Positions 22,432-38,608 of a stretch of DNA of 38,608 nucleotides are shown one piece after another; the stretch's first letter is position 1; each line of letters opens with the position of its first letter. The notes beneath the pieces were generated by a model. It saw only the letters and a program-made list of their open reading frames with translations. It ran no database searches and was not told the DNA's origin. The stretch is from Parcubacteria bacterium C7867-006 (GTDB taxonomy: Bacteria > Patescibacteriota > Minisyncoccia > Phycocordibacterales > DATDWN01). A program made the position numbers and the translations under genes. The stretch spans positions 1 to 38,608 of the forward strand of contig LFCP01000005.1 of the NCBI GenBank assembly GCA_001189155.1, read 5' to 3'.

Positions 22432-23553
22432 TTATTTTAAATTATCTATAACTTTTATAAATCTATCTACTACAAAAGCAAGTTCTTCTTCTGTTATATC
22501 AGTCCCACTTGGCAAATATAAACCATCAGAATACAAACTACTTGCAACTGGACATGAATCCTTTTCTACAATACCTTCTTTCAAAAATATTTCTTGCTCA
22601 TTATATGGAACAAAATCCTCCCTGGTTTGAACTCCACCCTCCAGAAGTTTACTCATGAGAACTTGTCTTTTTCCAGAAAGACTTCCTGTAAGCAAGATAT
22701 TAAACATCCAGTATACATTATATGCGTAAGGCTTTTCAACCGGTAGAATAATATCCTTCACCCCTGAAAGATGCTTGATATAGTAGTCAGCGATTTCCCT
22801 TTTTCGCTCAATTATTTTTTCAATTTTTTTAAGTTGCCCAACACCAACAGCAGCCTGAAGATTGGTCATCTGATACTTGAAGCCAAGCGCTTGGTGCATA
22901 AATTTATCCTTGTCACCAAAAGCAAGATTCTTTAGAAGTCTACACTTCTCGATAAGCTCTTTATCATCTGTTACAACCATACCTCCTTCACCTGTCGTTA
23001 TTATCTTATTGGAATAAAAACTAAAACAACCGATATGACCGATGCCTCCAACCACTTTTCCTTTATACTTTGCTCCATGAGCTTCAGCTGCATCTTCAAT
23101 TACGAATAGATTATGTTTTTTTGCAATCTCCATAATAGGATCCATATCAACTGGATGACCGTATAAATGAACAACAATGATGGCTTTTGTCCTAGAGGTA
23201 ATTTTAGCTTCAATGAGCTTAGTATCAATATTAAGAGTATCGGGCTCACAATCAATTGGAATCGGCTTTGCACCTTGGTAAAGAACCGCAAAAAAAGTTG
23301 CCATATTAGTCATTGTAGCAACAAGGACTTCATCATCTTTACCTATTCCAAGAGCAGCGACAGCCAAATGCAATGCCGTTGTACCACTATTTACAGCGGC
23401 TCCGTATTTTACACCACAGTATCGTGCAAAACCTTCCTCAAATTCTGGTAAAAATGTTCCTGCAAGACCTGAAATGTCTTTTTTTGTAATAGCCTCAGTT
23501 ACATTATTTATTTCCACCTCATCTAAAAATGGTTTTGATACTGGTACAAACAT
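22432..23553 (-). CDS. DegT/DnrJ/EryC1/StrS aminotransferase
   Basis: A 373-aa PLP enzyme. The motifs are AAVNSGTTALHLAV, VIEDAAEAHGA and CFSFYSNKIITTGEGG, in which K183 is the Schiff-base lysine. The family turns a 3- or 4-keto-6-deoxy NDP-sugar into its amino sugar, using Glu as amine donor (perosamine synthetase type). The cupin and the sugar C-methyltransferase next door suggest a branched or amino-deoxy sugar. It starts 15 bases after the cupin stop. Compare the second DegT protein at 31986-33149, which has His in place of the lysine. Confidence 0.9.
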   Translation of the reverse strand: MFVPVSKPFLDEVEINNVTEAITKKDISGLAGTFLPEFEEGFARYCGVKYGAAVNSGTTALHLAVAALGIGKDDEVLVATMTNMATFFAVLYQGAKPIPIDCEPDTLNIDTKLIEAKITSRTKAIIVVHLYGHPVDMDPIMEIAKKHNLFVIEDAAEAHGAKYKGKVVGGIGHIGCFSFYSNKIITTGEGGMVVTDDKELIEKCRLLKNLAFGDKDKFMHQALGFKYQMTNLQAAVGVGQLKKIEKIIERKREIADYYIKHLSGVKDIILPVEKPYAYNVYWMFNILLTGSLSGKRQVLMSKLLEGGVQTREDFVPYNEQEIFLKEGIVEKDSCPVASSLYSDGLYLPSGTDITEEELAFVVDRFIKVIDNLK

Positions 23554-23568
23554 AGTATTTTATTTTAA

Positions 23569-23949
23569 TTAATTCGTTAATGGTTTCTCTAACCTAATCG
23601 TGTCCTTTTCATAATCAGCTCCATTTCGAGGACCTTTTGTAAGTGATATAAAAACTGTATCCTCCAGAGCTTTAAATGCATGAGCTTCCATTGCTGGATG
23701 AAATGCAACATCTCCCGCCTTTAAAATACGACGTGTAGTTTTTCCACCTGGCATTAGCTTAGTATAACATGCAAACTTTCCTGATATTACATAGTCGTAT
23801 TGAACTGTTTTTTTGTGGTAATGATTACCTCTTACGCTTCCTTTATTACAAGTTATTAGTGTAACTGCATCAACAGCAGTCTTTGTAATAAGATCTCTAA
23901 TCTCACCACGTGCATCTTTAAAGTTTACCTTTGTTTTTTGTATATTCAT
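23569..23949 (-). CDS. Cupin-fold NDP-sugar modifying protein
   Basis: A 126-aa single cupin. The first cupin motif is VRGNHYHKKTVQYDYVISGK and the second is AGDVAFHPAMEAHAF. Similar short cupins are NDP-sugar 3,4-ketoisomerases (FdtA/QdtA), the WxcM type, or the C-terminal domain of CapF. The RGNHYHxxT form resembles CapF most. Its place between a DegT aminotransferase and a sugar C-methyltransferase supports a role in making a rare NDP-sugar. The exact reaction cannot be read from sequence. Confidence 0.72.
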   Translation of the reverse strand: MNIQKTKVNFKDARGEIRDLITKTAVDAVTLITCNKGSVRGNHYHKKTVQYDYVISGKFACYTKLMPGGKTTRRILKAGDVAFHPAMEAHAFKALEDTVFISLTKGPRNGADYEKDTIRLEKPLTN

Positions 23950-23950
23950 A

Positions 23951-25156
23951 TTATTTCATTTTAGGAATTATAAATTTGAGATTCAAGTGCGAAAGTTTTG
24001 AAACCAGAAAATCAGCGATGTTCCACGGCAAGATCAATGCGTGTGATATTTCATTTGAAATATCACTATCAGGACGAATTGGGATATTAGACCCAGGTGC
24101 AAATTTCCCAATTTTAAGCGGAGAACTATCTGTAATAAACTCTATAACGGTAGAGTCTATCTTGCAATAATTAAGCAAGGTATTTCCTTTCGTCGCAGCA
24201 CCGATAGCTACAATTTTTTCCCCAGACGCCTTGGCCTTATACAAATCAAAATTTAATCTTCCACTGAAATCAATGATCCGCTTAGTAAAATCTGCATATG
24301 TTGCCAAATCATACATACCATATTTTTTTTCTTCATCTATATATTCGTTTACAATAGAGCTATCTTTCGGCTTTATCTTTGAAACATACACTCGTATCGA
24401 ACCACCCATATAATCATTTTTCTCCAAACTATGAATATATAAGGCGTGTTCTTTAAAAAACTTGTGAAAAGGCATTACGTTGAAATATGAGACATGCTCA
24501 AGATATATGGTATCAAATGCTCCTTGTTCAACAAGAGTTTTAAAATATGGAACTTCAAATATAAATAATCCTGTCTTATCGAGCGCAAGAGAAATGTCTT
24601 TCACAAATGCTTTCATATCCGTAATATGGTTAAATACATTTGTGGCTATAATTACTTTTGCTTTTTCTTTCTTTGAAATGACTTTTGCAGTTTTCGTATT
24701 GAAAAAATCATTTATTGTTGTAATACCATTTTTCTTTGCAATTTTGGCAATATTTTTTGATGGTTCAATCCCAATGACCTTCGTACCAAATTGAGACTTA
24801 AATGATTTGAGTAAAGTCCCATCATTGCTACCAATATCAATAACCAAGTCCTTACTGCCTAGAGAAATTTTTGTACCAACAGATTCTGCCATTTTTGCAA
24901 AATGCTCAACAGATACCTTTGAATTTGATGCCGTATAACTGTAATCAATTTTTTGATACCTTTCTTCTGGAGGAACAACATACCCCAGCATAGCATGACC
25001 ACAACTTTTACATAAAAGCACATTGAGTGGATATAGCGTGATTGGCTTATCGGCACACTCTTTTGGTAAAAATGTATCTGCTAATGGATGCAATCCAAGA
25101 TCTATTATTTTAACAAGTTTACTTCCTCCACATAATTGACATTTTTTTGTATGCAT
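23951..25156 (-). CDS. Sugar C-methyltransferase (TylC3-like, zinc-binding N-terminus)
   Basis: A 401-aa protein with the three-part layout of NDP-hexose C-3-methyltransferases. An N-terminal zinc site is C6-x2-C9 and C49-x2-C52 (CQLCGG, CKSCGH). A SAM domain has VIDIGSNDGTLL near 104-115. A C-terminal Rossmann-like domain has IVAIGAATKGNTLLNYCK. The central YLEHVSYF carries the Glu-His pair used in catalysis in this family. It would add a C-methyl branch to a keto-deoxysugar. One base separates it from the cupin gene. Confidence 0.87.
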   Translation of the reverse strand: MHTKKCQLCGGSKLVKIIDLGLHPLADTFLPKECADKPITLYPLNVLLCKSCGHAMLGYVVPPEERYQKIDYSYTASNSKVSVEHFAKMAESVGTKISLGSKDLVIDIGSNDGTLLKSFKSQFGTKVIGIEPSKNIAKIAKKNGITTINDFFNTKTAKVISKKEKAKVIIATNVFNHITDMKAFVKDISLALDKTGLFIFEVPYFKTLVEQGAFDTIYLEHVSYFNVMPFHKFFKEHALYIHSLEKNDYMGGSIRVYVSKIKPKDSSIVNEYIDEEKKYGMYDLATYADFTKRIIDFSGRLNFDLYKAKASGEKIVAIGAATKGNTLLNYCKIDSTVIEFITDSSPLKIGKFAPGSNIPIRPDSDISNEISHALILPWNIADFLVSKLSHLNLKFIIPKMK

Positions 25157-25163
25157 AAATTTT

Positions 25164-25955
25164 TTATGTATTAATTCTCTTTAATACAAAACCTCTCAAT
25201 CCACCAAAATTATCTTCCTTTACAGTGTATAAATCCTTCCAATACCCCTGAAAAGTTGTCTTTGTCCGCAAATAACCAGCAAATGCAAAAGATTCTCCTT
25301 TGAGCATCCACATTATTCTTCTCTTGATTCTTATGAATAGAGAAAATATCGTCAAAAAATTCGTAGGAATATATAGTATGTTTTTCACACCTGAATTGTG
25401 CATATTGATAAATATATTCCTCCATTCTTTATCAGTGAAACTGGCGTCTACTCTATAAATCATAGCTATTGAATTATTTTCGCTAAGATACTTTGGCCAT
25501 TCCTTGCTAGAGATATCAAACAATTCTATTGAATCTGCTTCAATAAAAACTTTTTGTAAAGTTTCAACACTGACAGCAGAATATTCAGAACATATCAATT
25601 TTAATTCTGGTTTATATTTCTTTATGTTATATTCAAGACCTGCACCTCCAACTCCTGTAGAAAAAAGTAACTGTATTCCAGAATTATTCAAAACTTTAAC
25701 AATATCCAGCGCTCTTTGTTTTAGGCCATTATCTTGACCATCTTTCTTAATCTCCATTTCGCAGGCTTTAAGCCATTCGGCACGGTTTGTGGATATTGAA
25801 AATGAATCATGGCTAGAACGCAATGTATTCCATGAATCGACAGAGTCTAATTTACCGTTCTTAAGTATCGATCCAATATCACCAAAGGCATAATAGTGTT
25901 TTATTGTTAACGGAATTGGAAGAGAATTTATTTTTTTAAGAATTGATTTTGCCAT
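25164..25955 (-). CDS. Unknown protein, SAM-methyltransferase-like core
   Basis: A 263-aa protein I do not recognise. Residues about 95-110 (LLFSTGVGGAGLEYNIKKY) followed by KLICSEYSAVSVETLQKVF look like the first two strands of a class I methyltransferase. No clear catalytic motif follows, and a hydrophobic patch (NFLTIFSLFIRIKR) lies near 195-210. It is the first gene of the minus-strand unit that runs down to the GT4 at 21141. It begins next to the GC-rich cassette at 26011. A divergent -10 (TGtTATAGT) lies 26 bases before the ATG. It may complete the rare-sugar pathway. Confidence 0.6.
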   Translation of the reverse strand: MAKSILKKINSLPIPLTIKHYYAFGDIGSILKNGKLDSVDSWNTLRSSHDSFSISTNRAEWLKACEMEIKKDGQDNGLKQRALDIVKVLNNSGIQLLFSTGVGGAGLEYNIKKYKPELKLICSEYSAVSVETLQKVFIEADSIELFDISSKEWPKYLSENNSIAMIYRVDASFTDKEWRNIFINMHNSGVKNILYIPTNFLTIFSLFIRIKRRIMWMLKGESFAFAGYLRTKTTFQGYWKDLYTVKEDNFGGLRGFVLKRINT

Positions 25956-25981
25956 AGTAATTTTACTTTTCAGCAGAATTT

Positions 25982-25990
25982 ACTATAACA
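25982..25990 (-). promoter_or_regulatory. Possible promoter of the 25955-21141 unit
   Basis: TGtTATAGT on the minus strand, 26 bases before the ATG at 25955. No clear -35. It lies back to back with the cassette promoter at 26011-26039. Confidence 0.4.
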
Positions 25991-26010
25991 TTTTTTGTAA
26001 TAATATTCAT

Positions 26011-26039
26011 TTGACATATACATACTTTTATGCTATTCT
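26011..26039 (+). promoter_or_regulatory. Strong promoter of cassette 1
   Basis: A perfect -35 TTGACA (26011-26016), a 17-base spacer and -10 TATTCT (26034-26039) with an extended TGc before it. The start site should be near 26046, giving a leader of about 25 bases with a Shine-Dalgarno. Confidence 0.8.
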
Positions 26040-26057
26040 TTGTACAGAACGTCAGTC

Positions 26058-26064
26058 AAAGGAG
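26058..26064 (+). promoter_or_regulatory. Shine-Dalgarno that sets the cassette 1 start
   Basis: AAAGGAG lies 6 bases before TTG 26071 and decides that start over the ORF-track ATG at 26011. The latter lies on the -35 box, before the likely transcription start. Resident genes of the window rarely show such a site. Confidence 0.75.
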
Positions 26065-26070
26065 CGGCAA

Positions 26071-26787
26071 TTGAACAACCCAAGAAAAGCCTTCGTTGAG
26101 CTACGGGATCGGTACAGACCGCTGTACGATGCACGTGTAGCGCTCCACGAACGATTATTAGAAGCGAAGGTCCCAATGATTGGGCACGACTTCTTCGGTC
26201 ATGACCTGCCAGTAGCCCAGACATGCCTTCTTATCCACGAAGACAAGTCTGCCTGTGAAAGGGCATGGGTCGCGGCACTGCTACATAGCCTGGACAGGCT
26301 TATGTCACCGCAGGAAGAGGAAGATACTCTTACAGAACTCCTCTCGCTCGTCTCCGAAAAAGTGATGGGTACCGAAGTCAAGAAGGAAATCCGACTTGCA
26401 CTCCGAAACCACGATAAGGCGAACGGTGAAAACGATTCGCTGACTCAGCAGATTCTCCAGGATGCTGACCGACTTGCAAACGCCCAATCAATCATCCTGA
26501 TTAGAGCTGGGCAATTCACGTCGACTGTTCCGGCGGTCGAGCTCGGCCATCTAGGCTTTGCTCGTCATCCGGAAAGTAGCTACCGGAATACCCGATCCAC
26601 TCACGACGACCTCATTGGGGTTCTGGAGTGGGATCCTGAAGGCCCCGAGGCCTGTGCCCCATTCTGCTTACGTCTACCAAAGGCAATCGAGTTCGGTAGG
26701 CCCCACTTCGCGTACATTCGTGACTGGATACGGCGAGTCCAGTCAGACTTCGCAGTGCTCGGTCTCGATCCGTGGCCGATTGAATAG
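26071..26787 (+). CDS. HD-superfamily-like hydrolase (cassette gene, TTG start)
   Basis: A 238-aa soluble protein from TTG 26071. Its histidines and acids follow the order of an HD domain: HDLPVAQTCLLI, then AALLHSLDRL, then RNHDKANG, then QDADRLANAQSI. The second element reads HS where a canonical HD domain has HD, so the usual metal pair is altered; an Asp two residues on could substitute. The ADRLAN element matches HD phosphohydrolases, which act on nucleotides or phosphoesters. Substrate is unknown. Codon use is GC-rich (CTC, GCC, CGG) and unlike its neighbours. The ORF-track extension to 26011 overlaps the promoter and is not translated. It is probably foreign cargo. Confidence 0.65.
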   Translation: MNNPRKAFVELRDRYRPLYDARVALHERLLEAKVPMIGHDFFGHDLPVAQTCLLIHEDKSACERAWVAALLHSLDRLMSPQEEEDTLTELLSLVSEKVMGTEVKKEIRLALRNHDKANGENDSLTQQILQDADRLANAQSIILIRAGQFTSTVPAVELGHLGFARHPESSYRNTRSTHDDLIGVLEWDPEGPEACAPFCLRLPKAIEFGRPHFAYIRDWIRRVQSDFAVLGLDPWPIE

Positions 26788-26805
26788 AGAGAATGGATCA
26801 AACCT

Positions 26806-26831
26806 GGTGGGGCTCACGCCCCACCTTTTTT
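26806..26831 (+). terminator. Terminator of cassette 1
   Basis: GGTGGGGC (26806-26813), loop TCAC, GCCCCACC (26818-26825), then six T. It is a strong one-way intrinsic terminator; the reverse strand lacks a T-run. The stop of the converging gene is at 26833. Confidence 0.92.
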
Positions 26832-34604: not shown

Positions 34605-36293
34605 TTAAACTTTTAAGTCTGGAGCTCTTCTACAGTCATAAACTTTGGCAGAAATAGATCTGTCAATTTTTTCATAAACTATCTTGCAAGAATCAAAATA
34701 TTTTTGATAAGGACTTATTGGATCAATTCTTGGAATATCTAATACAAAATAGTGTTCTTTATACTTATTTAAATTAGCCACCTTATCATTTAAATCAAAT
34801 TTAGGATCTATATATAATCTTTTTCGATACTTACCAATCCACTGAAGTTCAAAACCTGCATTATCATTATATGTCGTAACCATTTTGATATCTGGATTAT
34901 TTTTTATATATTCCATGGATGAAGCGATCAATCTTGGAGCAGAACCGTTGTAGAAACCGAACAAATATTCCTCTATAAACATCCCGTTATAAACAATGCC
35001 TAAAGGAATTAAGAACAAAATAAATCTCTTTTTATTTTGAGGTTTCCAGATAACAAAAATAACGACACAGATAAAGATAATCCAAACTAATGCCATAAAC
35101 AGAAAAGATACATAAAAACCTACTGGACCAGAACCTCCAGAAAATGGATAAAGAAAATTCCATTTCAAACTGATAATTCTTGATACCCACTCGGTTTTAG
35201 GATGAAGAGGTGGTACGTAATGAGGTAAAGATTGGACCATAATTAATATTAGTGAAACTATAGTTCCAATTAATAAAAATTCTTTAGATCTTCTATCATT
35301 AGTATCCAAAATTTTAGAAATAACAACCGATGAGAGAATTGTTAGCGGTATAACAAGTAACTGTAAATACCTATCCAATGCCCCAATAGAAAAATCAAAC
35401 AAAATAATGTAAAAAATGAATGCAAAAGAAAGGAAGAAAACGAAAATTCTATTTTTAACAAAATCTTCTTTTGTTAAAAATAATGGAACTAAAATAAGGA
35501 ATGGGGAGGAAAAAAGTGCCGCCTTTATACACTGAATAATAGTTTGAAACCATCCACGATCCCAAACTATAAAATGTTCCCAATATTTTAAGGCATATTC
35601 AAAATTAAAAAATGGAAATATAAATTTAGACAATAATAAAAGAACAAACAGTAAAACCAAACCGAGCAAACCATACCCCGTGTATTTAAACACCCTTTTC
35701 TTGTCAGTGAAAGCTTTTTTAAAAATTATGAAATCAAAAAATACAGCCAGTATTGGTAAAACACTACTAATCTTTATAAAAAATCCTCCGATAGCTCCTA
35801 TCAGAATTAAACACATCCATTTATAATTTTTATAATCAAAAGTAAAATTCGAGTTTTTCCATTTTAAATAACCTATCAAAAGAATTAGGAAGAAAAAAGG
35901 CATTACCGCACCGTCTACATCAACCATCAATGATGCGAGCAACGAGTAAAAAGATAATGTAAAAATAGTAATTGCTATATAAGCTGTTTTTTTATCATAC
36001 AAATATTTAACTAAATAAAAAAGTAGAAAGATGTTTAAAAAACCAAAAATAAAAGGAATGGTTCTAAAATTATAATCTCCAACAATTGGGCCAAGTCTTG
36101 TATAAATAAACTCTGTTAAAGGTGGATGTGGTACTGTGCCAGGAGTAATTATTTCTGGATGAGAATACAAAACCCATTTGTATTCATCTTGATGATAAGG
36201 AGAACGCAAGCCGAATAAATGTAACCCTATAAATAAGGTGATGACTGAAAACCAGATTATCCAGTCTTTCTTGCTGAGTTTAACTAAATTCAT
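34605..36293 (-). CDS. GT-C (GT39-like) membrane glycosyltransferase
   Basis: A 562-aa protein with about 12 TM segments. The first loop carries YHQDEYKWVLYS with D36-E37 and HPPLTEFIYTRLG; HPPL is the second hallmark of ArnT/PMT-type GT-C enzymes. MVDVDGAVMPFFF supplies a further acidic loop. The soluble C-terminal tail (residues about 455-562) contains LQWIGKYRKRLYIDP. It should add a polyprenyl-linked sugar outside the membrane. Its start is about 60 bases from the divergent promoter of cassette 2. Confidence 0.8.
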   Translation of the reverse strand: MNLVKLSKKDWIIWFSVITLFIGLHLFGLRSPYHQDEYKWVLYSHPEIITPGTVPHPPLTEFIYTRLGPIVGDYNFRTIPFIFGFLNIFLLFYLVKYLYDKKTAYIAITIFTLSFYSLLASLMVDVDGAVMPFFFLILLIGYLKWKNSNFTFDYKNYKWMCLILIGAIGGFFIKISSVLPILAVFFDFIIFKKAFTDKKRVFKYTGYGLLGLVLLFVLLLLSKFIFPFFNFEYALKYWEHFIVWDRGWFQTIIQCIKAALFSSPFLILVPLFLTKEDFVKNRIFVFFLSFAFIFYIILFDFSIGALDRYLQLLVIPLTILSSVVISKILDTNDRRSKEFLLIGTIVSLILIMVQSLPHYVPPLHPKTEWVSRIISLKWNFLYPFSGGSGPVGFYVSFLFMALVWIIFICVVIFVIWKPQNKKRFILFLIPLGIVYNGMFIEEYLFGFYNGSAPRLIASSMEYIKNNPDIKMVTTYNDNAGFELQWIGKYRKRLYIDPKFDLNDKVANLNKYKEHYFVLDIPRIDPISPYQKYFDSCKIVYEKIDRSISAKVYDCRRAPDLKV

Positions 36294-36357
36294 AATGTAA
36301 AAATCATATTAGCATTTTAAGTAAAGCTATGGAATAACTTGCTTTTTTAAAAAAATG

Positions 36358-36366
36358 TGATATAAT
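36358..36366 (+). promoter_or_regulatory. Extended -10 promoter of cassette 2
   Basis: TGaTATAAT at 36358-36366. The -35 is weak (TTGCTT, 36339-36344, 16-base spacer). The start site would be near 36373. Confidence 0.65.
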
Positions 36367-36375
36367 CGCATGAAG

Positions 36376-36383
36376 AGAGGTGA
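36376..36383 (+). promoter_or_regulatory. Shine-Dalgarno of cassette 2 gene
   Basis: AGAGGTGA lies 3 bases before GTG 36387, and its AGGTG core 4 bases before. It supports GTG 36387 over ATG 36411. The leader would be only about 14 bases. Confidence 0.55.
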
Positions 36384-36386
36384 GAA

Positions 36387-36962
36387 GTGCTCCGGTTTAT
36401 CCTGGATAAGATGTCTTCGAACGACAGACCACCTGAAAAGATCGATGCGATCGTTGTCATCTCATATGGGTCAACCAAAACGAGACTGACAAGAGCCTCC
36501 AGCGAAGTTGCTCTCAAGGCAGCCTCCTTGGCCAAAGAACACCCGGAATCAACGCTCTATTGGGGTTTCTTTGGAAAGAGTACTTTCCAAACAACCGAAA
36601 AGTTTCTTAAGGACAGACTCTTCAGAGGACTGAAACACATTTGCGTCGGCTCGGTAACGAGCACAACCGACGAGTGTGAAGCTATCAGCAAGTACCTCCC
36701 CAATACCACACAGAATATTGTGGTTGTTGTGGAAGGGTGTCATTCAAGGCGCTGCATGAAAGTCTGGCGGTACTTCCACCAGAACAGTTATGTATACGCC
36801 TCATCCATCAATCCAATTGATGGATCTGACCCAGGAAATCCAATGTGGACCCAGCGCCACTGGATAATCTGGCTTCCAGTAAACATTATCCTTATCCCCC
36901 TTTACTGGGGTAACGGACCACGCAGGATGGCGAAGGTAAACTTCAGCCAACCAACGTGGTAA
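36387..36962 (+). CDS. DUF218/YdcF-like protein (cassette gene, GTG start)
   Basis: A 191-aa protein with the DUF218 pattern (ElyC/SanA/YdcF). It has DAIVVISYGSTKTRLTRAS at the start of the fold, then the conserved turn VTSTTDECEAISKYL (S-x-T-x-x-E) and VVVEGCHSRRCMKVWRYF, which matches the H-x-x-R region. Family members in other bacteria take part in envelope or peptidoglycan steps, but the biochemical reaction is poorly known. The usual N-terminal TM segments are absent; one hydrophobic stretch (WIIWLPVNIILIPLYWG) lies near the C-terminus. Codon use is richer in GC than the neighbours. ATG 36411 is the alternative start. Confidence 0.7.
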   Translation: MLRFILDKMSSNDRPPEKIDAIVVISYGSTKTRLTRASSEVALKAASLAKEHPESTLYWGFFGKSTFQTTEKFLKDRLFRGLKHICVGSVTSTTDECEAISKYLPNTTQNIVVVVEGCHSRRCMKVWRYFHQNSYVYASSINPIDGSDPGNPMWTQRHWIIWLPVNIILIPLYWGNGPRRMAKVNFSQPTW

Positions 36963-36967
36963 AACAA

Positions 36968-36994
36968 AGCCCGCCCTTGCAAAAGGGGCGGGCT
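36968..36994 (+). terminator. GC-rich hairpin at the end of cassette 2
   Basis: AGCCCGCCC (36968-36976) pairs with GGGCGGGCT (36986-36994). The T-run (CTTTT) comes 4 bases after the stem, so it is a weaker terminator than that of cassette 1. Confidence 0.75.
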
Positions 36995-37000
36995 CAGCTT

Positions 37001-37714
37001 TTATAATTTTATAAATCTATATTTAACGATCATCGGCAACATTTTGAAACCAAGTTTTGCTGCTCTCCATACACTACCAGTATAACCTGAAACACCAACT
37101 CTAGGTTTGTACATAACTGGAATTTCAATTACTCTTTTTTCCTTTCTAATAAGCCATATCATCATTTCTGGAGAAAATTTTCCATCACCGTGAGACATTG
37201 AAAAATATTTTTTTATATCCTCTAAAGATTTTCTGTCTAACAACCTATACGTACATCCTACATCTGTTAATGTTGGGCCGTTATGTAATACTTCCAATAT
37301 TTTTGCTACCGCCCAATTACCAAATCTAACAGACCACGGCATAAACGCTCCTGACCATATAGCCGCTCTAGAAGTCCTAGTACCAAGAACCACAGGAAAA
37401 TCGTCACTGTATAATAAAAATTTATGTAAGTCATTCGGCTCAAAAGTCCCATCTACCTCAGTCATAACAATCAAATCCCCTGTCGCTTCACTCAAGGCTC
37501 GCATATAAGCGTGACCGTAACCCTGTTTATTTTCTAATACACGCCTAGCCTTAGTTTTAGCAATCTCCTCTTTTGTATTTCCTAAAGCATTGTTATCTAC
37601 AGCTACTACCTCATCAACAAATCCTGTAGCAAAAAAACCATCTATAACTGCTTTTATAGAATCTGCTTCATTATATGTTCCAAAAACTACACTTACTTTT
37701 TTATTTTTATACAT
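37001..37714 (-). CDS. Glycosyltransferase family 2
   Basis: A 237-aa soluble GT-A enzyme. It opens KKVSVVFGTYNEADSIKAVI, with VVAVDNNALGNT and the acidic site MTEVDGTFEPNDL near 105. The tail has SGYTGSVWRAAKLGFKMLP. It resembles DPM/DPG-synthase-like proteins that load polyprenyl phosphate, but the metal site reads EVDG, so it may use another acceptor. It starts one base after the partial GT4 gene and ends right at the hairpin of cassette 2. Confidence 0.82.
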   Translation of the reverse strand: MYKNKKVSVVFGTYNEADSIKAVIDGFFATGFVDEVVAVDNNALGNTKEEIAKTKARRVLENKQGYGHAYMRALSEATGDLIVMTEVDGTFEPNDLHKFLLYSDDFPVVLGTRTSRAAIWSGAFMPWSVRFGNWAVAKILEVLHNGPTLTDVGCTYRLLDRKSLEDIKKYFSMSHGDGKFSPEMMIWLIRKEKRVIEIPVMYKPRVGVSGYTGSVWRAAKLGFKMLPMIVKYRFIKL

Positions 37715-37715
37715 T

Positions 37716-38608
37716 TTACTTCATTTCAATTAAAAGTTTCTTTACTAAACCAGACAAACTTTGAGAATTAACAAAAACTTCTAACTCTTTATGTATTTCT
37801 ATTTGCTCATGTGGCTCAAGAAGTCTTTTTATTGCCAAAGCAATCATTTTTGTATCAGGTTCCACAAAACAATATTCTGGAACTAATTTTTTTAAAGACT
37901 TATTAGAAATAAGTGGAATTGCTCCACAACTCGCCGCCTCTACAATAGTTTTATCAAAAGAACCTGAATCAGTAAAATTTAAACAAACTTCATGACTACT
38001 ATATATTTCTGGGAGTTTGTCTGGAGACACACCATCAACAAACTGAACATAAGAAGCTATTGTGCTTTCAGAAGCAAGTTTTTTTAGTGATTCGTAGTAA
38101 ATCCTATCCCTCTCCAAATACGAACCTACTATAGTAAGTGAGACCTGCTCGCCAGACGAAATCATATTATTTATTGCAGAAAGTGCTAATTCTATATGTT
38201 TTATTGGGGCGATACGACCCACCATACAAACTGAATATTTTCGTCTTACAACTCCTGGAACGGGTCTGAAAAGGCTGGTATCTATGCCGGCTGGCATTAT
38301 TACAGTCTTACTGAATTTTGCTGTAAATGAATCGGTTGATGTACAAAAAAGCTTTGTTGAAAAAAAGACTGCTATGTGAGTTAATAGACTTCCATCCTTA
38401 TGATTTCTCCACATATAAACTGGAATTGAAAATATTTTCCAATACAAACCAGCAAGCAAAACGTACTCTTCATTCATATGAACAAAAACTCTGTCATATG
38501 AACCACGAATTAAAAATAAATATTTATATAAATTAATTATATAACCAATATGAGAAACTTTATTCTCTTTACCGAGAGAATAAACTGTAACATTTTTAGG
38601 TAAATCAT
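37716..38608 (-). CDS. Glycosyltransferase family 4, partial at right edge
   Basis: The ORF track starts at ATG 38477, but the frame is open to the window edge and encodes further coding-like sequence (NVTVYSLGKENKVSHIGYII, then SYDRVFVHM). The gene is therefore cut by the edge and 38477 is internal. The C-terminal donor domain has VVRRKYSVCMVGRIAPIKHI, FVDGVSPDKLPEIYSSHEVC and GSFDKTIVEAASCGAIPLIS, the E-x7-E-like region of GT4. It is the most upstream gene seen of the minus-strand glycan unit. Confidence 0.85.
   Translation of the reverse strand, partial: DLPKNVTVYSLGKENKVSHIGYIINLYKYLFLIRGSYDRVFVHMNEEYVLLAGLYWKIFSIPVYMWRNHKDGSLLTHIAVFFSTKLFCTSTDSFTAKFSKTVIMPAGIDTSLFRPVPGVVRRKYSVCMVGRIAPIKHIELALSAINNMISSGEQVSLTIVGSYLERDRIYYESLKKLASESTIASYVQFVDGVSPDKLPEIYSSHEVCLNFTDSGSFDKTIVEAASCGAIPLISNKSLKKLVPEYCFVEPDTKMIALAIKRLLEPHEQIEIHKELEVFVNSQSLSGLVKKLLIEMK

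Follow-up and report, generated by a model that had tools for sequence, protein, structure and literature searches.

A GC-rich DUF218-like gene, antisense at a surface-glycan junction in a Patescibacteria genome, may belong to a class of fast-changing islands

Near the right end of a Parcubacteria contig, a GC-rich gene runs backwards between two glycan genes, which raises the questions of how it would be expressed there, what its protein might do, and whether it is an old resident of the locus or an accessory unit. The window analysed here is the whole 38,608-nucleotide stretch, contig C7 of genome G000 (673,860 bases, 98% complete). An earlier note on this DNA had placed the gene between two minus-strand glycan genes; its neighbours do encode PMT-type and GT2 glycosyltransferases, both on the minus strand. 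The features are as follows.

26011–26831, plus strand: the other GC-rich unit of the window, with TTGACA at 26011, TATTCT at 26034, AAAGGAG, and a GGTGGGGC/GCCCCACC hairpin followed by a T-run
26071–26787, plus strand: HD-domain-like gene within that unit, likely TTG start at 26071
34605–36293, minus strand: PMT-type glycosyltransferase (Pfam PMT_2, 1.8e-7; homologues in 11 relatives)
36339–36344, plus strand: candidate −35, TTGCTT, a poor match, 16-nt spacer to the −10
36358–36366, plus strand: extended −10 TGATATAAT (TG-A-TATAAT), read from the sequence
36377–36384, plus strand: Shine-Dalgarno GAGGTGAG, read from the sequence
36387–36962, plus strand: DUF218-like gene, 191 aa, GTG start at 36387, 48% GC, GC3 0.565
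36968–36994, plus strand: GC-rich intrinsic terminator hairpin from the terminator scan, tail CAGCTTTTAT, T-run from 36998
37001–37714, minus strand: GT2 glycosyltransferase (Pfam Glycos_transf_2, 2.3e-15)
37716–38477, minus strand: GT1-type glycosyltransferase, next gene of the GT2 operon, reaching or passing the contig end

The signals proposed earlier for the plus strand (extended −10, Shine-Dalgarno, GTG start and GC-rich hairpin) were all located at the positions listed. The stop codon of the gene ends at 36962 and, as had been claimed, six bases (36995–37000, by the terminator scan) separate the hairpin from the converging GT2 stop at 37001. The hairpin arms, GCCCGCCC at 36969–36976 and GGGCGGGC at 36986–36993, fold with −24.0 kcal/mol (z = −4.3), and none of 200 shuffles folded as well. 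A strict sigma-70 scan did not flag the promoter of the DUF218-like gene, because the −35 is weak. The case for this putative promoter rests on the extended −10 and on its recurrence 5′ of homologues: similar TGnTATAAT/TATATT/CATAAT/TATAGT sequences precede the copies in G005, G006, G014 and G288, and TTG-type hexamers at a similar spacing are also visible 5′ of homologues. The step in composition is likewise present. The row with a reported GC count of 28/60 (36400–36459) has exactly that, the row before the gene (36280–36339) has 12/60 rather than 13/60, the row 37000–37059 has 14/60, and the two flanks of the gene have 29% and 35% GC. The anatomy supports reading the DUF218-like gene as a self-contained transcription unit.

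Read on the minus strand, window positions 36945–37003 present the hairpin followed by TTTGTTTT. In the window's genome, the hairpin could consequently also act as a stop for the GT2 operon, splitting the host operon in two. A two-strand terminator as a general feature was considered and rejected, as by eye there is no reverse-strand T-run in the copies of G005, G006 and G014.

The earlier note had called the protein DUF218/YdcF-like, which holds at the level of profiles and falls short at the level of family membership. The match to Pfam DUF218 (PF02698) reaches 20.7 bits (E = 4e-4), below the gathering cut-off of 27.6 bits, and the best of the six family members, out of ten, that match DUF218 at E <= 0.1 reaches 5e-6. 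When the ten homologues are aligned as a profile by hhalign with undisputed DUF218 proteins from this order, the probability is 83% (E = 9e-6, 113 columns), and with L094 alone it is 86% (E = 5e-6). Because Pfam's curated threshold is not reached, we describe the protein as DUF218-like rather than as a member; judged by these alignments, it is a divergent relative. Searches of the PDB by sequence gave no match, those of NCBIfam and PHROGs nothing above chance, and a related-loci search with the same protein found nothing.

In the ten-homologue alignment, Glu71 and Thr/Ser93 are conserved in 10/10 sequences and His119 in 9/10, and most of the typical DUF218 proteins aligned carry equivalents at these E/T/H positions. 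SanA needs a Thr/His/Glu triad for its function (PMC12176290), and our alignment suggests which Glu this would be. The structure model is an alternating alpha/beta fold (mean pLDDT 86, pTM 0.86), for which Foldseek gave no PDB match of significance; none of the 50 matches listed is YdcF. Most homologues share a hydrophobic C-terminal helix with the window protein. No N-terminal membrane anchor is evident in the latter, which places it closer to the cytosolic YdcF. The claim that DUF218 proteins are envelope-linked is borne out in E. coli by ElyC, which acts on lipid-carrier metabolism (PMC3879167), and by SanA (PMC12176290). A role in handling surface-glycan precursors is the likeliest functional reading, a tentative one that draws on the family, the neighbouring genes and the conserved Glu/Thr/His set.

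How does the locus look in relatives? Among named records with the GT2 gene, most of the closest ones are Patescibacteria that bear the label Candidatus Zambryskibacteria, which places the genome indirectly. GT2 is 59–79% identical in a ten-sequence alignment of relatives, PMT and GT2 genes are frequent neighbours, and the GT1-type gene mostly adjoins GT2. Within the genus, some junctions contain no DUF218-like gene: the PMT and GT2 genes are 2 bp apart in G003, overlap in G004 and are separated by 58 bp in G002, and in G010 a methyltransferase gene is the only gene between them. The DUF218-like gene is antisense at the junction in G000, G005 and G006 and in the family members G014 and G015, and it also occupies this junction in G288, of another family. 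Elsewhere, the homologue is antisense among other glycan genes in G157, follows glycan genes in G275, and lies at other positions in G080 and G119. In G351 (L088) it is an ordinary operon gene with the GC of its neighbours.

The earlier note had expected homologues to be flanked by the same promoter and hairpin at different genomic positions. The first part nearly always holds, with a promoter-like sequence 5′ and a hairpin just 3′ of the stop in G005, G006, G014, G015, G288 and G157, the same layout seen by eye in G119, G080 and G275, and G351/L088 as the exception. The second part fails within the family, where five of five copies sit at the PMT–GT2 junction, as does that of G288; positions differ only in more distant genomes. 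The opposite pattern, an operon gene of equal GC lacking its own promoter and hairpin, was found for a single homologue, again G351/L088.

We note three further observations from these loci. In G288, a 948-aa gene (L089, 3876–6722, plus strand) without similarity to window proteins adjoins the DUF218-like gene. The junction of G015 holds another GC-rich antisense gene (L031, 10925–11521, plus strand), a DUF218 protein above the Pfam cut-off, with a promoter-like sequence of its own; it is only distant kin of the first. The G119 homologue (L090, 873–1415) has an in-frame TAG inside an otherwise conserved gene, from decay or a sequencing error.

Comparison of the six same-junction copies shows that the DUF218-like gene is no recent arrival and that the copies are old. 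Protein identity among them is 20–43% for DUF218-like, 45–57% for PMT and 67–77% for GT2; relative to the window copy, the DUF218-like protein is 43 and 40% identical within the genus, 30 and 24% within the family, and 20% outside it. Each of the five same-junction orthologues (G005, G006, G014, G015, G288) nevertheless has its own hairpin and is GC-richer than its flanks, and GC3 of the same-junction copies is 0.33–0.57 versus roughly 0.2–0.4 for most flanking genes. Such a high GC3 despite age would reflect either repeated replacement from GC-richer sources or selection on composition.

The strongest rival builds on the second of these options: ancient vertical descent from the family ancestor's glycan locus, with several lineages deleting the gene, and a high GC kept by codon or mRNA selection and not by foreign origin. 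It accounts for the shared junction and orientation across two families (six genomes) and for an identity that declines with kinship. However, synonymous sites should long ago have reached host composition, but GC3 remains close to 0.5 in the majority of hosts with flanks near 0.2–0.4; the DUF218-like gene has diverged far more than its PMT and GT2 neighbours; and deletions would have needed to leave genes that abut (G003) or overlap (G004). Trees of DUF218, PMT and GT2 have support too weak to separate vertical descent from re-acquisition. We consider this explanation rather unlikely.

The note had counted the gene as the second of two cassettes. A survey of GC in all ORFs of at least 90 aa (n = 659) on contigs C1–C8, the whole G000 genome, revealed a far larger set of 66 GC-rich ORFs. 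The distribution is two-peaked, with 88% of ORFs around 0.350 and 12% around 0.494 (BIC gain 282), and the 66 ORFs form 53 islands, 40 of them single-gene, with a median span of 578 bp. The same-genus genome G011 has 76 GC-rich ORFs in 59 islands (peaks 0.386/0.529), and a 200-kb sample of G018, which belongs to a different family, shows peaks at 0.381/0.537. A smaller G031 sample did not settle the shape of the distribution either way, and most of a G052 sample was masked. The GC3 of the DUF218-like gene, reached by 34 of the 659 ORFs, is thus unusual in its genome but not unique. Recognisable GC-rich members include DHFR, thymidylate synthase, FMN reductase, adenylate kinase, GNAT, HIT, ClpP and radical SAM proteins. 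Among 99 genomes, homologues of the HD-domain-like gene of the window occur in five further families of the order but not in the family of G000 itself.

The content of the islands is poorly conserved between G000 and G011, yet their junctions are shared more often than expected by chance. A reciprocal-best match in G011 exists for only 7 of the 66 GC-rich ORFs, versus 388 of 572 others. The islands of G000 and G011 coincide at 16 conserved-gene junctions (OR 7.1, p = 1e-6), and the genes found there are mostly without reciprocal matches. Among genes with 30 bp or more of free space after them, a terminator follows 48% of GC-rich genes versus 13% of others in G000 (p = 1.5e-7), and 30% versus 9% in G011; no terminator was detected for roughly every second GC-rich gene with such space. 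Antisense placement between parallel flanks occurs for 13 of 28 GC-rich ORFs versus 32 of 341 others. Many GC-rich ORFs have no Pfam match and hence an unproved strand, but among those with a match both orientations occur. The largest island, at 22465–26081 of G000 contig C4, has six GC-rich ORFs in a row, and its junction holds other genes in G011. Stronger-than-host promoters were ruled out as a mark of the class, since GC-rich genes score no better than the remaining genes that have space upstream (p = 0.6).

This last result, together with the G351 homologue in an operon of equal GC, fits an ordinary glycan-locus gene whose high GC is due to protein composition or chance. A GC3 of 0.565 against the usual 0.2–0.3 is, however, a difference at synonymous sites, and the two-peaked GC of the whole genome and the terminator enrichment also disfavour this explanation, which we regard as improbable.

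Repeats, direct or inverted, between the two flanks of an island showed no excess over permuted pairs in the class as a whole; neither target duplications nor terminal inverted repeats were found at island borders across the class, and no 8-mer beyond AT-rich words is enriched there, nor any motif shared. The DUF218-like gene has no homologue in phage or plasmid collections. Insertion by the recombinase of a mobile element (an integron-type cassette, IS or transposon cargo) would fit the mostly single-gene units, their presence and absence and the shared hot junctions, but is very improbable given flank repeats that equal permuted pairs, borders with only AT-rich 8-mers and the lack of phage or plasmid homologues.

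In sum, on balance we lean towards the view that the gene is an accessory, autonomous, monocistronic unit at a glycan junction and part of a fast-turnover class of GC-rich islands. The unit would comprise a promoter, a Shine-Dalgarno, a GC-rich coding sequence and an intrinsic terminator, and would occupy one surface-glycan operon junction in Zambryskibacteria-like Patescibacteria. With its own signals, the gene could sit backwards in an operon and, judged by anatomy, still be expressed; comparison of junctions shows it in some relatives and not in others, with its neighbours undamaged either way. Islands of this kind turn over quickly at preferred junctions in the two genomes compared, and would most likely come from a gene pool common to many Patescibacteria, taken up as bare DNA; uptake followed by recombination into gaps is the route of spread we favour by inference. 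The product of the DUF218-like gene would be an alpha/beta protein of YdcF type, located in the cytoplasm and possibly in contact with the membrane; by acting on a sugar intermediate, either activated or lipid-linked, it may tune the synthesis of surface glycans. A broader version, an order-wide pool of GC-rich (about 50–54%) self-expressing, mostly one-gene units exchanged at preferred junctions without a classical mobile element, with the DUF218-like gene as a long-standing occupant, seems to us doubtful.

The gene itself is fairly ordinary, being related to a known family from which it has diverged, and the island pattern is the more interesting result. It may represent a little-described route of gene turnover; we found no description of a class of GC-rich, mostly one-gene islands in the open-licence literature on GC-rich or cassette-like genes of these bacteria. 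Despite the small genomes of Patescibacteria, roughly one ORF in ten in G000 and G011 belongs to a set that stands apart by composition and changes fast. Should these units be exchanged singly, they would offer a concrete, countable handle on the adaptation of streamlined organisms, and accessory genes could readily be recognised by composition. The gene also points to a DUF218-like factor tied to surface-glycan loci, a layer presumed important for host contact.

Among known systems, the nearest for the protein is the DUF218 family (PF02698, including YdcF, ElyC, SanA and YgjQ of E. coli), to which it aligns over residues 20–135 and which it appears to resemble in the E...T...H positions of Glu71, Thr/Ser93 and His119, in its modelled alpha/beta architecture and in its glycan-locus setting. 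Unlike ElyC and SanA, it has no evident N-terminal membrane anchor, and its homologues form a group of their own within this comparison, usually GC-rich and monocistronic and mostly with a hydrophobic C-terminal helix. As units, the islands resemble integron gene cassettes in their one-gene size and variable content. Such cassettes normally have no promoter of their own and carry attC, whereas here a promoter-like sequence and a terminator are present, and the island borders revealed no recombination site in common. Gios et al. 2025 describe, by sequence similarity, about one transferred gene per genome and islands of 2.7–45 kb (PMC12455944). The likeness lies in single genes gained by small Patescibacteria genomes and exchanged mostly within Patescibacteria; in contrast, we find about 50 islands per genome of about 0.6 kb each, marked by GC and sharing junctions.
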